48,938 nt of DNA from a virus. The position numbers were made by a program, and so were the translations under genes. Location: positions 1 to 48,938 of IMG/VR virus record IMGVR_UViG_3300041583_000259; one strand, written 5' to 3'. How positions within the stretch are numbered: the stretch's first letter is position 1; each line of letters starts with the position of its first letter. This document shows, piece by piece, positions 24,851 to 30,084 of this stretch. The notes beneath the pieces were generated by a model that did not search any database, was not told the DNA's origin, and saw only the letters and a list, made by a program, of their open reading frames with translations.

Positions 24851-25038
24851 GCCTAATCAGCGTAATACTTATTCTTTTTTACATTCTTACAATAGTCACA
24901 ATTTTGATAATAATAGCAAATCTTTGTAGCTACCTAATCAACTATGGAAGTGGCTCGAACATTGGCTTACTAATAAGCCAACGAGAAGAAGAAAACGATG
25001 AGGGTTACATAAACGGCCCGGAATACGATAGGGACTAA
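24847..25038 (+). CDS. Small membrane protein
   Basis: About 63 residues. A long hydrophobic stretch (about 2-30, Ile/Leu-rich) forms one membrane segment, followed by a charged tail (QREEENDEGYINGPEYDRD). The start is uncertain: TTG at 24847 overlaps the previous stop by 4 nt, while GTG 24838 and TTG 24826 are alternatives. Its stop overlaps the whiB ATG. Confidence 0.5.
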   Translation: MSLISVILILFYILTIVTILIIIANLCSYLINYGSGSNIGLLISQREEENDEGYINGPEYDRD

Positions 25039-25337
25039 TGGCTCAGAAGTTAGAATACGAAAACGCTGGAATACTCAGAAGCGCGATTCCAGCATGGGAC
25101 AGGCTTTCCGAAGCCCAAGATCAGAATGAGGAGTATCCGTGTAAGGACAATCCTTACTTCTATACCGACTACTCTGATCAAATGGAACAGCGGATTCTAA
25201 CTGGCAACGATGCTGAGCAATTGTGCCATGGTTGCCCTTTATTGAAGCAGTGCTATGACTTTGCACTGGCAAACAAAGAGGCGTACGGCATCTGGGGTGG
25301 CATCAACTTTGGATTAGATGAAGAACAGCTATGGTAA
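25038..25337 (+). CDS. whiB: WhiB-family iron-sulfur transcription factor
   Basis: A 99-residue WhiB protein. The four cluster-binding cysteines are C35, C63, C66 and C72 (CHGCPLLKQC gives C-x2-C-x5-C), and the turn motif GIWGG is at 84-88. WhiB proteins carry a 4Fe-4S cluster and bind the main sigma factor of actinobacteria, so the phage can redirect host RNA polymerase. The family is essentially limited to Actinomycetota and their phages, which identifies the host phylum. The basic C-terminal tail of many WhiBs is short and acidic here (FGLDEEQLW), so DNA binding may be indirect. Confidence 0.9.
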   Translation: MAQKLEYENAGILRSAIPAWDRLSEAQDQNEEYPCKDNPYFYTDYSDQMEQRILTGNDAEQLCHGCPLLKQCYDFALANKEAYGIWGGINFGLDEEQLW

Positions 25338-26428: not shown

Positions 26429-27166
26429 ATGTCAGAGACAGAATACCCGGAACTAGCGTTTACGCAGTTCATCAAGAAGGCAGAGGCACTCAATGTGCCG
26501 AAGTCAATACTCATCTACGGCGATCCAAAGAACGGCAAGACATGGCTAGCGGCATCAGCTTCTGAGCTAAAGGAGTTTTCTCCTGTCCTGTTGATCGATG
26601 TTGAGGGTGGCGCGACTGCCATTGCTCGCGACTGGAAAGATGTAGATGTAATTCAGGTAGATAGCCATAAGCAGCTCGACCAAGTAATTGACGGCCTGCT
26701 AAACCAGAAGCACAAGTACAAGACTGTCATTGTGGATACACTAGGTGTCGCAATGGATAGGGCAGAGAAGGTCTTTGAAGAACGACCAGAGAACAAGGGC
26801 AACCGCTTTGGTAAGTGGGGAGACTTGAAGGAATGGGCTAACCAGACTGTTCGCAAGTTGCACCATGCACCATTCTTGTCTATCTTCATTGCTCACGCTC
26901 AGGACGACAAGGACGAGCAGACTGGCTCAGTGAAGACTGTGCCAATGCTTTCAGGCTCGACTCGCACAACGCTTCCAGCTATCCCAGACATCATCGCTTA
27001 CCTTACTAGCGAGCGTGTTGAGGATAAATCTAGGCGTGTTCTGCTACTGCAAGGCTCGGATAGGCTAGTATCTGGTAACAGGTTCGGTCTTCCAGCAAAG
27101 ATGTATGAGCCAACACTAAAGAAAATCATCACAGAAATCAACAAATTAGGAGAAGTCAAAAAATGA
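26429..27166 (+). CDS. Sak4-like RecA-fold ATPase (recombination)
   Basis: A 245-residue P-loop ATPase: Walker A GDPKNGKT (31-38), Walker B VIVDT (100-104), and a late segment FIAHAQDDKDEQTG, SGSTRTTLPAIPDII. The length and layout fit Sak4-type single-strand annealing ATPases, which act with an SSB-like partner. That partner (27163) follows directly, overlapping by 4 nt, and an end-resecting nuclease precedes it. AGGAG supports the ATG at 26429. Confidence 0.85.
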   Translation: MSETEYPELAFTQFIKKAEALNVPKSILIYGDPKNGKTWLAASASELKEFSPVLLIDVEGGATAIARDWKDVDVIQVDSHKQLDQVIDGLLNQKHKYKTVIVDTLGVAMDRAEKVFEERPENKGNRFGKWGDLKEWANQTVRKLHHAPFLSIFIAHAQDDKDEQTGSVKTVPMLSGSTRTTLPAIPDIIAYLTSERVEDKSRRVLLLQGSDRLVSGNRFGLPAKMYEPTLKKIITEINKLGEVKK

Positions 27167-27633
27167 GCTTTACAGTAAACGTTCCAACAGATTACAAGCC
27201 AAGTGCACCATCGTCTAACGACCTTGGTCCAATCCCAGCAGGTACCTACGCGTCCACACTGTTTGATATCAAGGCAGAAGAAGTAAAGAGTGGTCCAAAC
27301 GCAGGTAAGCCACGCTGGAACATCCAGTTCAAAATCTCCGGTGGTCAGTACGACAACAGGCGTGTGTTCTCTTACATCCCAATGTATGTCGCTGGTGACT
27401 TCTGGAAGTTCGAGAACTTCTTCTCGTCCCTAGGGTTTTCGGTCGAGGGTGCCTTCAAGGTCCCAGAGATCAATGACATTCTGGGTAAGGATGTAGATGT
27501 CCGTGTCAAGGTTCGCGAAGCTCAGGGTGACTACTCAGAGTCCAACGAGGTATCAGGGTTCAACAAGGCAACAACTGGAGCAACCGATGCGCTGTCTGCA
27601 ATGGGAGCAACCGAAGTAGTTTGGGCCGAATAA
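27163..27633 (+). CDS. Single-stranded DNA-binding protein-like (DUF669-like)
   Basis: A 156-residue protein: a GPIPAGTYASTLFDIKAEEV opening, KPRWNIQFKISGGQYDNRRVF and DVRVKVREAQGDYSESNEV strands that fit an OB-fold, and a flexible Ala/Thr-rich linker ending in the acidic/aromatic tip VVWAE, like the partner-binding tail of SSBs. Its place right after the Sak4-like ATPase supports a recombination and replication role. Confidence 0.75.
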   Translation: MSFTVNVPTDYKPSAPSSNDLGPIPAGTYASTLFDIKAEEVKSGPNAGKPRWNIQFKISGGQYDNRRVFSYIPMYVAGDFWKFENFFSSLGFSVEGAFKVPEINDILGKDVDVRVKVREAQGDYSESNEVSGFNKATTGATDALSAMGATEVVWAE

Positions 27634-27737
27634 CTAAATAGTAAGTAGTAGGGCCGGAGGGGTGCGTCTCCCAAACAAAAACGCACATAAGTCCTTGCAT
27701 GGAGCCTCTGTTGTCTTTTCTCCTTTCTCTAGCATTG

Positions 27738-27763
27738 TGTGGGTTCGACTCCCACAAAGGACA
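27738..27763 (+). other. tRNA T-arm-like hairpin with 3' acceptor strand
   Basis: TGTGGGTTCGACTCCCACA followed by AAGGAC and a discriminator-like A. It copies the 3' end of a tRNA gene. The matching 5' acceptor strand lies so that the whole would be exactly 73 nt, the length of a tRNA without its tail. No CCA is encoded. Confidence 0.6.
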
Positions 27764-27764
27764 C

Positions 27765-27849
27765 GATTTTGATAGTAGCGTCTGTTCCATAACAGGTCTA
27801 CAAAATCTTCGCCCTGCCCCGGGCAGGATAGATAGTTACTATCAAAATC
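27765..27849 (+). other. 13-bp perfect inverted repeat enclosing two hairpins
   Basis: The arms GATTTTGATAGTA and TACTATCAAAATC are exact reverse complements, 59 bases apart. Between them are CTGTTCCATAACAG (5-bp stem) and CCTGCCCCGGGCAGG (7-bp stem), giving a three-way or four-way junction in RNA. Confidence 0.8.
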
Positions 27850-27873
27850 AGCTTTTTAGAGAAAGGAAGCTAA

Positions 27874-30084
27874 ATGGATAAGAGGGAATTCCTCGAGTAT
27901 ATACTCGGGGACGGAGCTGGCTACGCGACTATAGTTACTAAAGACTTTGGTGGACAGCCAACAATACAGAAGTTTTTTAGCTACCCAGATGAGCTTGATG
28001 AGATGGCCGCTTATGCGTCTACCAAGTCAGATGAAGACATTTACTTTTCCCCAATTAAGTTTTATGAGCAACGACGCATCCGCGAAAACGCCAAGAGTGT
28101 TGCAGTTGTTTATGCAGATGCCGATGCCTGCAACCCAAGTAACTTTAGGATGCCTCCTAGCGTCTCTGTGGAGACATCTAAGGACCGCTGGCACACTTAT
28201 TGGGTTCTTGATACCGATGCAGATCCAACACGCGTTGCATTGCTTGCTAAGAAGATTGCCTATGCGCACAGAGACCAAGGTTGCGATGTCTCTGGCTGGA
28301 ACCCTACAAAGCTGTTGCGAGTTCCGGGAAGTAAGAATGGTAAATACTCACCTGCTCAGGATGTTGTTGCTCAGAGTTCTGGGCTGGTTTACACTATCGA
28401 TGAAATTGAAGCACTCTATGCGGATATACATGTAGATACACCTACAGAGATATCCAATGAGCCAATGCCCACAGAGTCCCCTGAGCTTATAGAGATTCTA
28501 GGGAAGCTACCTGCAGACAGTAACATTATTAGCCTCTACACAGAGACTCCTATGCCCGGAGCAGATACCTCCAAGATGCTCTGGAGATTACAGCTAGAGC
28601 TTTTCAGGTGCGGTCTAACCGCGGAGGAAGTCTTTGTAGTTGCCAAGCAGGCTAAGTGCAATAAATACCACAACCCAGATCGCCCAAAGCGTCTTGATGC
28701 TGATGGCGACTTGTGGCGTGAGGTGCAGAGGGCCAGGAATGCTCACTTGATTCCAGACAACGCTGAGCAAGCAGTTGTGATGCATGAGCAACAGCAGATT
28801 ATCACCGCTGAGAGTAGAGTAGTAGATTTCCTAACTCACGAAGAGCGAACCATTGTGAACTCTTCCCCGACATTTATAAACAAATATGTTGCGTGGGCTG
28901 GCAAGAAGACTGACGGAGCTGTTGAGTATCAGATTGCTTCTGCCTTTACTCTTCTGTCCTCTGCTTTCTCCGATACTGGATATGGCACACCCAAGTACGG
29001 GAAGCTCGGCCTGAACTTGTGGTTCATGTTGCTGGGTGAAACCACTCTTAGCAGGAAATCCACCAGCAGGCAGTTGATGCTCAGGATGCTCAGGTCTTAC
29101 GAAAAGTATGTTGGATACCAGATTGACATTGGTTCCAACGTGACCGCAGAAGGGCTTGTAAAGCACCTTTCAGGTAGAGACAAGCTGACATCCCTATTTC
29201 ACCGCGATGAAGTTCAGGGCATGTTCAAGGAGTTTGTCACCAAGACCTACATGGCCACCGCGGCAGATCAGTTCACAGAGCTTTACGATGGGCATGTTCC
29301 TGTTGTGATTCGATCCACAGGTGGCTCTAGTGCTACCAGTGCTGTTCAGTCGGACCGGGCAGAAACAAACTTCATCATGTATCTAATGGGAATTACTAGC
29401 AAGGTTGCAGAGATTCTGACTATAGATTACTTCCGCTCTGGATTCCTTGCGAGATTCCTCTACGCGGTCGCAGATGCCCCTGACAGGACATTTGAGCTTG
29501 AGGCAGTAGAGCAGGCACCCGAAGAGGAAAGCGCGACTGCAAGCGACTACGAGATGGACGAAATAGTCAGCTCACTTTACAGGAGCAAGCTCTGGTGGGA
29601 GAAGAAGGGTGCACCATTCCCAAGGCCAGTTCGCATGACCGATGAGGCTCTTTCTCGATTCAATAAGTTCAAGTGGGACATGGGAACCTTTACTGATGGT
29701 CACCCCAACGAGGACTCGATCGAGCCTTCGCGCCAGCGTCTGGCGCTATCTGTCTGGAAGTGTGCAATCCTGCTTGCAATGGTTGATCGCTCAGACCAGG
29801 TTGAGATGAAGCATTTGCTAATTGCTATTTACTACTCCGAAGGCTGGTTCAAGAATCTTGTTCGCATGGCCGCTTCTATTAGCGAGTCCGAGTGGCAGAG
29901 AGAGGTTGACAACCTCGAGGCCTTTGTAACCAGCAAGGGTGGCAAGGCTCGCTACGACGAGGCATTCAAGCGATTTGGCAATAAAAAGAAGCGTGAGTTT
30001 GACGAGATGCTTGACTCTCTCCGCTCACAGGGCCGGGTGAGGGTCTATGTGGACAATAAGAAGACAGTTCTGGAGGTCCTCTAA
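27874..30084 (+). CDS. Primase-polymerase with DUF3987-like helicase domain
   Basis: A 736-residue replication protein. The N-terminal domain resembles RepB-type primases: VVYADADA (residues 79-85) with metal-binding Asp, SVETSKDRWHTYWVLD with His107, and KLLRVPGSKNGK. The second half has GETTLSRKST (about 388-397, P-loop-like), a HRDEVQGMF segment and a sensor region, typical of DUF3987 ATPases. It would prime and perhaps unwind DNA at the origin while a host polymerase elongates, since no polymerase gene is seen. Its ribosome site AGAAAGGA can be paired off by the upstream structured RNA. Confidence 0.85.
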   Translation: MDKREFLEYILGDGAGYATIVTKDFGGQPTIQKFFSYPDELDEMAAYASTKSDEDIYFSPIKFYEQRRIRENAKSVAVVYADADACNPSNFRMPPSVSVETSKDRWHTYWVLDTDADPTRVALLAKKIAYAHRDQGCDVSGWNPTKLLRVPGSKNGKYSPAQDVVAQSSGLVYTIDEIEALYADIHVDTPTEISNEPMPTESPELIEILGKLPADSNIISLYTETPMPGADTSKMLWRLQLELFRCGLTAEEVFVVAKQAKCNKYHNPDRPKRLDADGDLWREVQRARNAHLIPDNAEQAVVMHEQQQIITAESRVVDFLTHEERTIVNSSPTFINKYVAWAGKKTDGAVEYQIASAFTLLSSAFSDTGYGTPKYGKLGLNLWFMLLGETTLSRKSTSRQLMLRMLRSYEKYVGYQIDIGSNVTAEGLVKHLSGRDKLTSLFHRDEVQGMFKEFVTKTYMATAADQFTELYDGHVPVVIRSTGGSSATSAVQSDRAETNFIMYLMGITSKVAEILTIDYFRSGFLARFLYAVADAPDRTFELEAVEQAPEEESATASDYEMDEIVSSLYRSKLWWEKKGAPFPRPVRMTDEALSRFNKFKWDMGTFTDGHPNEDSIEPSRQRLALSVWKCAILLAMVDRSDQVEMKHLLIAIYYSEGWFKNLVRMAASISESEWQREVDNLEAFVTSKGGKARYDEAFKRFGNKKKREFDEMLDSLRSQGRVRVYVDNKKTVLEVL

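Follow-up and report, generated by a model that had tools for sequence, protein, structure and literature searches.

The window analyzed here comprises positions 1 to 48,938 (48,938 nucleotides) of the IMG/VR virus record IMGVR_UViG_3300041583_000259, and the interval under study (27634-27873) separates an ssb-like open reading frame (ORF), itself preceded by a Sak4-like ATPase, from the ORF of a DNA primase (Table 1). A WhiB-like ORF at 25038-25337 points to an actinobacterial host. The gene order ATPase/exonuclease, SSB, RNA slot, and primase is kept in Arthrobacter phage Molivia, Clavibacter phage CN1A, and Curtobacterium phages Nonagon and Yappy, and the orthologous slot of the ssb-like ORF is annotated as SSB in Molivia, Nonagon, and CN1A. 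The primase of Stenotrophomonas virus Jojan60 is preceded by an ATPase, a hypothetical gene, and tRNAs.

Table 1. Coordinates of genes and RNA features around the ssb-primase interval of the window
Feature	Position	Strand	Details or evidence
ssb-like ORF (DUF669/phage SSB family)	27163-27633	+	PHROG 378/7778 and PF05037 matches
H-type pseudoknot	27656-27686	+	S1 27656-27659/27668-27671; S2 27662-27667/27681-27686; A-rich L3 27672-27680
D-arm-less tRNA-like element	27691-27763	+	model R1, 50.3 bits; model R2, 42.9 bits, E 3.8e-8; covariation
Acceptor stem	GTCCTT 27691-27696 with AAGGAC 27757-27762	+	sequence
Anticodon-arm equivalent	27709-27734	+	stem 27709-27713/27730-27734 closing loop 27714-27729
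Anti-SD tract CTCCTTTCT	27720-27728	+	identical to 9 nt of 16S rRNA 3' end; family-wide motif (A1/A3)
TCCTTTCTCTA	27721-27731	+	exact complement of primase ribosome site
T arm	27738-27756	+	TGTGGG 27738-27743, T-loop TTCGACT, CCCACA 27751-27756
Junction RNA	27764-27850	+	13-bp stem 27765-27777/27837-27849 enclosing hairpins; optional module
Primase Shine-Dalgarno region TAGAGAAAGGA	27857-27867	+	complement of 27721-27731
Primase ORF, 736 aa	27874-30084	+	phrog_10514 DNA primase, E 2.8e-168

Structured RNAs between the ssb-like gene and the primase

The stretch 27634-27890 folds better than all of its shuffles (z = -3.2). It contains the acceptor/T-arm-like stack described in the first-pass annotation, with acceptor strands, T stem, and T-loop where that annotation had placed them. 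The reported end-to-end length of exactly 73 nt holds if the unpaired A27763, at the discriminator position, is counted, as the acceptor strands themselves span 72 nt. The annotation had also described the element as having neither a D arm nor an anticodon. The D arm is indeed absent, but the family has an anticodon-arm equivalent, since an extended anticodon-like stem closes the anti-Shine-Dalgarno (anti-SD) loop. In the window, the family-homologous version of this stem has 5 bp (UGUUG/UAGCA), and an energetically better alternative of 7 bp pairs 27697-27698 and 27700-27704 with 27727-27733, borrowing part of the anti-SD. ARAGORN called 0 tRNA genes in the window, and Rfam release 15 gave no gathering-threshold match in 27634-27873 and still none at relaxed E-values.

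Directly 3' of the ssb-like gene lies a covarying H-type pseudoknot that was absent from the first-pass annotation. In 41 of 41 homologous regions, the same topology is built from diverse complementary sequences, including the stem pairs GGAG/CUCC, AGUC/GACU, AACC/GGUU, GUGCGU/ACGCAC, UGAGCA/UGCUCA, and UGGGGUA/UACCCCA, and about 10% of composition-shuffled controls reach a comparable pseudoknot score. By eye, the motif also appears to be present in Molivia, whose slot holds ordinary tRNAs. A possible role of the pseudoknot is SSB binding, on the model of the pseudoknot operator of T4 gene 32 (PMC535899).

Downstream of the tRNA-like element, the perfect 13-bp stem is present as first described (27764-27852 folds with z = -6.2), but most relatives lack this separate module, and its membership in the tRNA-like architecture is unsupported. 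Six relatives (L002, L003, L014, L036, L037, and L062) have a long perfect stem of unrelated sequence between the element and the primase, with an outer stem of 12 to 13 bp and an inner motif, AAAUCUUCGAUUACGUCUUCG, that recurs in several. Neither the junction RNA of the window nor that of L037 matched an Rfam family.

Other small RNAs were observed upstream of the primase in the same slot. Mini-tmRNAs of ~81 to 83 nt occur in L031 (2531-2611) and Jojan60 (L225, 3302-3384); they match RF00023 over model positions 1-374 (61.4 and 61.8 bits), with the mRNA-like domain and pseudoknots absent, and by eye L008 and L012 contain a mini-tmRNA too. In CN1A (L226, 3425-3472), a minihelix-like RNA of ~48 nt with an acceptor and a T arm, and almost no other arm, lies directly upstream of the primase and ends CCA-like.

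A covarying RNA family in related actinophages

Comparison of the interval 27634-27873 with cultured phages by blastn returned no match, and homologues were therefore reached through the primase protein, a query that brought 80 IMG/VR loci. About 80 related actinophage contigs carry the pseudoknot followed by the D-arm-less tRNA-like element between an ssb-like gene and the primase. The element, which sits just after the ssb-like stop in nearly all 80 loci, consists of an acceptor-like stem, a TGG linker, an extended anticodon-like stem with a large C/U-rich loop (usually 15 to 20 nt), and a T arm with the loop TTCGAYT; no D stem was found in A1/A3. The 3' acceptor strand is followed by AC, position 74 being an invariant C and position 73 a near-invariant A. 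A primase-independent DNA pattern scan found 41 contigs; L095 and L119 aside, all of those with enough sequence have the element in this slot, so that it appears almost confined to the ssb-primase slot.

RNAalifold analysis of 43 non-redundant elements recovered the same three helices, with compensatory change in 15 of 16 pairs. When pairs were counted on the named structure, 88.9% of cells across the three helices were paired, compared with 66.6% in shuffles, and 214 cells were double-changed, compared with 69 in shuffles and at most 46 in slid controls. Pairing reached 89.7% and 96.9% of cells in helices 1 and 3 (acceptor and T arm), and the T-loop is nearly invariant. The compensatory changes in homologues, whose absence the first-pass annotation had named as a refutation, are thus present, with strong covariation in all three helices. 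Covariance model R1 matches every locus examined, and model R2, from which the window and its three nearest relatives were left out, recovers 27691-27765 in the window with the score given in Table 1.

That ARAGORN and Rfam call no tRNA in the window would be expected of a decaying tRNA remnant or of an attachment-site relic, either of them functionless. Both readings are refuted by the covariation, as the three helices and the pseudoknot covary strongly across phages of 57 to 80% identity, and we assign them virtually no weight.

The suspicion that this is an undescribed element, matching no known RNA family, was well founded: the family is real, undescribed, and widely conserved among related actinophages. 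We found no known family that contains the structure in Rfam or in the published literature exclusive of preprints. Hybrids of rRNA and tRNA with an anti-SD anticodon loop ("rtRNA") have reportedly been the subject of a preprint, and the published-literature search, with preprints outside its scope, returned no report of them. Among 84,980 prokaryote genomes, a pattern scan picked out 21 stretches, none of which scored with R1, so that this pattern revealed no bacterial chromosomal copies. The pattern TGGT..CACCTCCTTT..GTTCGA was rejected, as it mostly captured ordinary tRNA-Val anticodon stems.

Additional tRNA-like structures were seen in some genomes. Short D-arm-less hairpin sets adjoin the main element in L054 (2913-2972) and L062 (2732-2783), with loops (UCCCCC in L054) that differ from that of the main element. 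A second tRNA-like element in the L002 genome (L228; G005:C1:32269-32343, - strand; 47.9 bits with R1) lies 37 nt upstream of another gene and has the loop UUUCUCUCUUG; this second copy suggests a modular leader. Anti-SD tRNA-likes were also located where no primase homology was detected nearby, at L243 2529-2595 (- strand, inside a tRNA array, with the loop UUACCUCCUUUC), L248 354-428, L239 about 1112-1179, L119 3776-3866, and L095 1139-1206. L148, L176, and L233 possibly hold anti-SD tRNA-likes as well, the last being called an intron-bearing tRNA-Gln by ARAGORN.

The anti-SD loop and its fit to the primase ribosome site

At the position of the anticodon, members of the family carry a C/U-rich copy of the 16S rRNA 3' end, which we take to be AUCACCUCCUUU. 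The copy reads CUCCUUU or CCUCCUUUCU; around the core CUCCUUU it extends to 8 to 10 nt of the 16S 3' end in many members and to 12 nt in L119. The window carries CUCCUUUCU, and the 11-nt exact complementarity to the primase ribosome site noticed at first pass is present. No second complement of this kind occurs on the + strand of the window, and among shuffled leaders an 11-nt match arises at a frequency of 2.5e-4.

An initial permutation test took in all 48 loci, and it was redone on representatives of 10 primase clusters because relatedness inflated its result. Among these representatives, pairing of the loop with the leader of its own primase is stronger than pairing with swapped leaders (-14.0 versus -12.0 kcal/mol; permutation p 0.003), and exact complementary runs average 8.1 nt with the own leader and 6.6 nt with swapped ones. 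Loop pairing also exceeds the expectation from 16S SD strength and from the leaders of other genes, with a mean excess of -2.3 kcal/mol (Wilcoxon p 0.006); the window itself has no pairing excess under the 18-nt loop cut used in this 16S-relative test. The excess is -3.9 kcal/mol where no tRNA gene intervenes (20 to 120 nt spacing) and -0.7 kcal/mol where one does (p 0.02), and in L009, L012, and L031, with true tRNA genes in between, cis pairing is no better than 16S-like. The extended loop/SD matches change together and shift register between lineages, as in L047 (CUUCUUCUCC/GGAGAAGAAG), L059 (CCUCCUG/CAGGAGG), and L063 (CCUCCCUG/CAGGGAGG). The anti-SD thus stays complementary to its cognate SD through sequence change, more weakly where tRNA genes intervene. 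Free variation of the loop tract relative to the ribosome site, the other refutation named at first pass, is contradicted, as loops pair better with their own sites than with swapped ones. These tests, which use short sequences, gene starts from a crude script, and a phylogeny that is not fully modeled, lend evolutionary support to a predicted anti-SD/SD interaction.

In nested folds, element and leader together are predicted to be bistable. In the window, folding from 27691 puts the SD-masked form ahead of the tRNA-like form by 2.3 kcal/mol, a gap that grows to 9.5 kcal/mol with the 5' flank, and in several relatives the SD-masked form is favored by 5 to 19 kcal/mol.

Possible roles: a processing-released lock, a trans-acting RNA, or both

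The ssb-primase intergenic transcript carries two RNA parts, the pseudoknot followed by the D-arm-less tRNA-like with its anti-SD loop, and from these features we infer that it may operate as a translational switch. In the nascent transcript, the loop would lower primase initiation by pairing in cis with the primase SD; stable folding of the tRNA-like, probably with cutting by RNase P and RNase Z as for a tRNA, would then free the SD, and the RNA, stable after excision, may have a weak trans effect on other SDs. We regard a switch in which the loop masks the primase SD, and folding or RNase P/Z excision unmasks it, as the most likely reading, at about even odds. A switch sensing a tRNA-binding factor (for instance EF-Tu, RNase P, or a synthetase) or structure to release primase translation had been proposed in the first-pass annotation, of which the tRNA-like structured RNA and the putative anti-SD pairing with the primase site hold up, whereas sensing and release are candidate steps. 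Three lineages (L018, L021, and L027) bear on this reading in both directions. Their SD is only 12 to 15 nt downstream and the CUCCUUU core is absent, which counts for it; the tRNA-like body is kept without the anti-SD, which counts against it. The loss of the core in the three may be a single event in one ancestor.

Pairing with the primase SD is doubtful as the sole role of the loop, because the loop is kept where tRNA genes precede the primase and because unrelated phages carry anti-SD tRNA-likes away from a primase. The anti-SD loop persists in elements within tRNA arrays (L009, L012, L022, L031, L065, and L070, among others), where the distance from element to primase is as much as 822 nt and is 700 to 820 nt in, e.g., L009, L012, and L031. 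The unrelated phages make a serious rival of a trans-acting RNA, which would be excised by RNase P/Z and stabilized by its tRNA shape, and whose loop would bind host or phage SDs or compete with the 16S rRNA, the primase being one target among several. Such an RNA agrees with a loop whose copy of the 16S 3' end reaches 12 nt (L119), with the location of the element in tRNA arrays in many relatives, and with a tRNA-like fold that is the unconstrained minimum-energy closure, acceptor ends closed, in 63 of 64 isolated elements. It agrees also with independent anti-SD tRNA-likes in the unrelated phages L243, L248, L239, L119, and L095: anticodon-stem-closed cases number 20, compared with 5 (~2 independent) for a composition-matched scrambled heptamer, and ~6 independent non-primase cases stand against those ~2. 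Within the family, however, the fit of the loop to its own primase SD is closer than 16S-like pairing accounts for, and the element is nearly limited to the ssb-primase slot. We consider a trans-acting RNA less probable than the cis switch, though by no means remote. A tentative reading that combines the two, and that we hold plausible while falling short of favoring it outright, is that a tRNA body with an anti-SD in place of the anticodon would form a new class of phage RNA, serving as a processing-released cis lock on replication genes and, once excised, as a programmable trans SD-binding RNA, with similar elements that have arisen or spread in unrelated phages.

The slot in distant phages is occupied by RNase P-type substrates, namely the ordinary tRNAs of the cultured phages Molivia, Yappy, and Jojan60, the Jojan60 mini-tmRNA, and the CCA-ending minihelix of CN1A. 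Because the slot houses these other tRNA-shaped RNAs in distant relatives, punctuation by RNase P/Z may be the older function, and the tRNA-like could be mainly a cleavage signal parting the ssb message from the primase message, with the loop secondary. The retention of the body without the anti-SD core in L018, L021, and L027 is in keeping with this. Punctuation accounts neither for the pseudoknot nor for the conservation of the anti-SD loop and the match of that loop to the primase SD, and no tRNA-like was seen in the ssb-primase slot of Nonagon; we judge it unlikely as the main role. Some actinobacterial toxins cut away the anti-SD (PMC12620021, PMC12274833), the same 16S sequence that the loop copies, so the element might be an anti-defense RNA, a decoy that imitates the 16S 3' end and diverts host anti-SD-cutting ribonucleases of the RelE1 or MazF type. 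The loop register varies, however, the full 16S context is often missing, and the coupling to the primase SD would be left unexplained, which makes a decoy very improbable.

On the switch reading, a translational switch is predicted to be releasable by tRNA-processing enzymes. Should the trans mode prove true, phages would carry a portable anti-SD RNA with the potential to reprogram initiation. The covariance model annotates a slot overlooked by standard tRNA finders, and the element joins tRNA mimicry, the 16S anti-SD, and phage replication-gene control, which are usually met apart.

In mechanism, the proposed switch is a variation on the SD-masking leaders and tRNA-like leaders already known. 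With tRNAs (RF00005), and phage tRNAs in particular, the element shares the acceptor-T coaxial stack, the T-loop TTCGAYT, the GG linker, a length of ~73 nt, and occurrence in tRNA arrays; it differs in having neither D arm nor anticodon and an anti-SD loop of 15 to 20 nt in place of the 7-nt anticodon loop, and the window scores 16.4 bits against RF00005, below the cut-off of 29. The mascRNA-menRNA family (RF01684), excised by RNase P and RNase Z, likewise has a reduced tRNA-like body inside a longer transcript and is the best, though weak, Rfam match of L070 (19.1 bits; cut-off 42.5), but it belongs to eukaryotic lncRNAs and lacks an anti-SD loop. The Escherichia coli thrS leader contains a tRNA-like operator that mimics the anticodon arm for the synthetase. 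By analogy, the phage element may share with it tRNA mimicry upstream of an SD and translation control, the anticodon being replaced here by an anti-SD. SD-sequestering riboswitches and RNA thermometers resemble it in the predicted cis anti-SD/SD pairing and in an alternative fold that would free the SD, whereas the sensor or alternative fold here would be a tRNA-like domain. The pseudoknot operator of T4/RB69 gene 32 (PMC535899) is also an ssb-linked H-type pseudoknot 5' of the ribosome site of a replication gene, and the pseudoknot described here differs in lying 3' of the ssb gene, ahead of a tRNA-like element and the primase.
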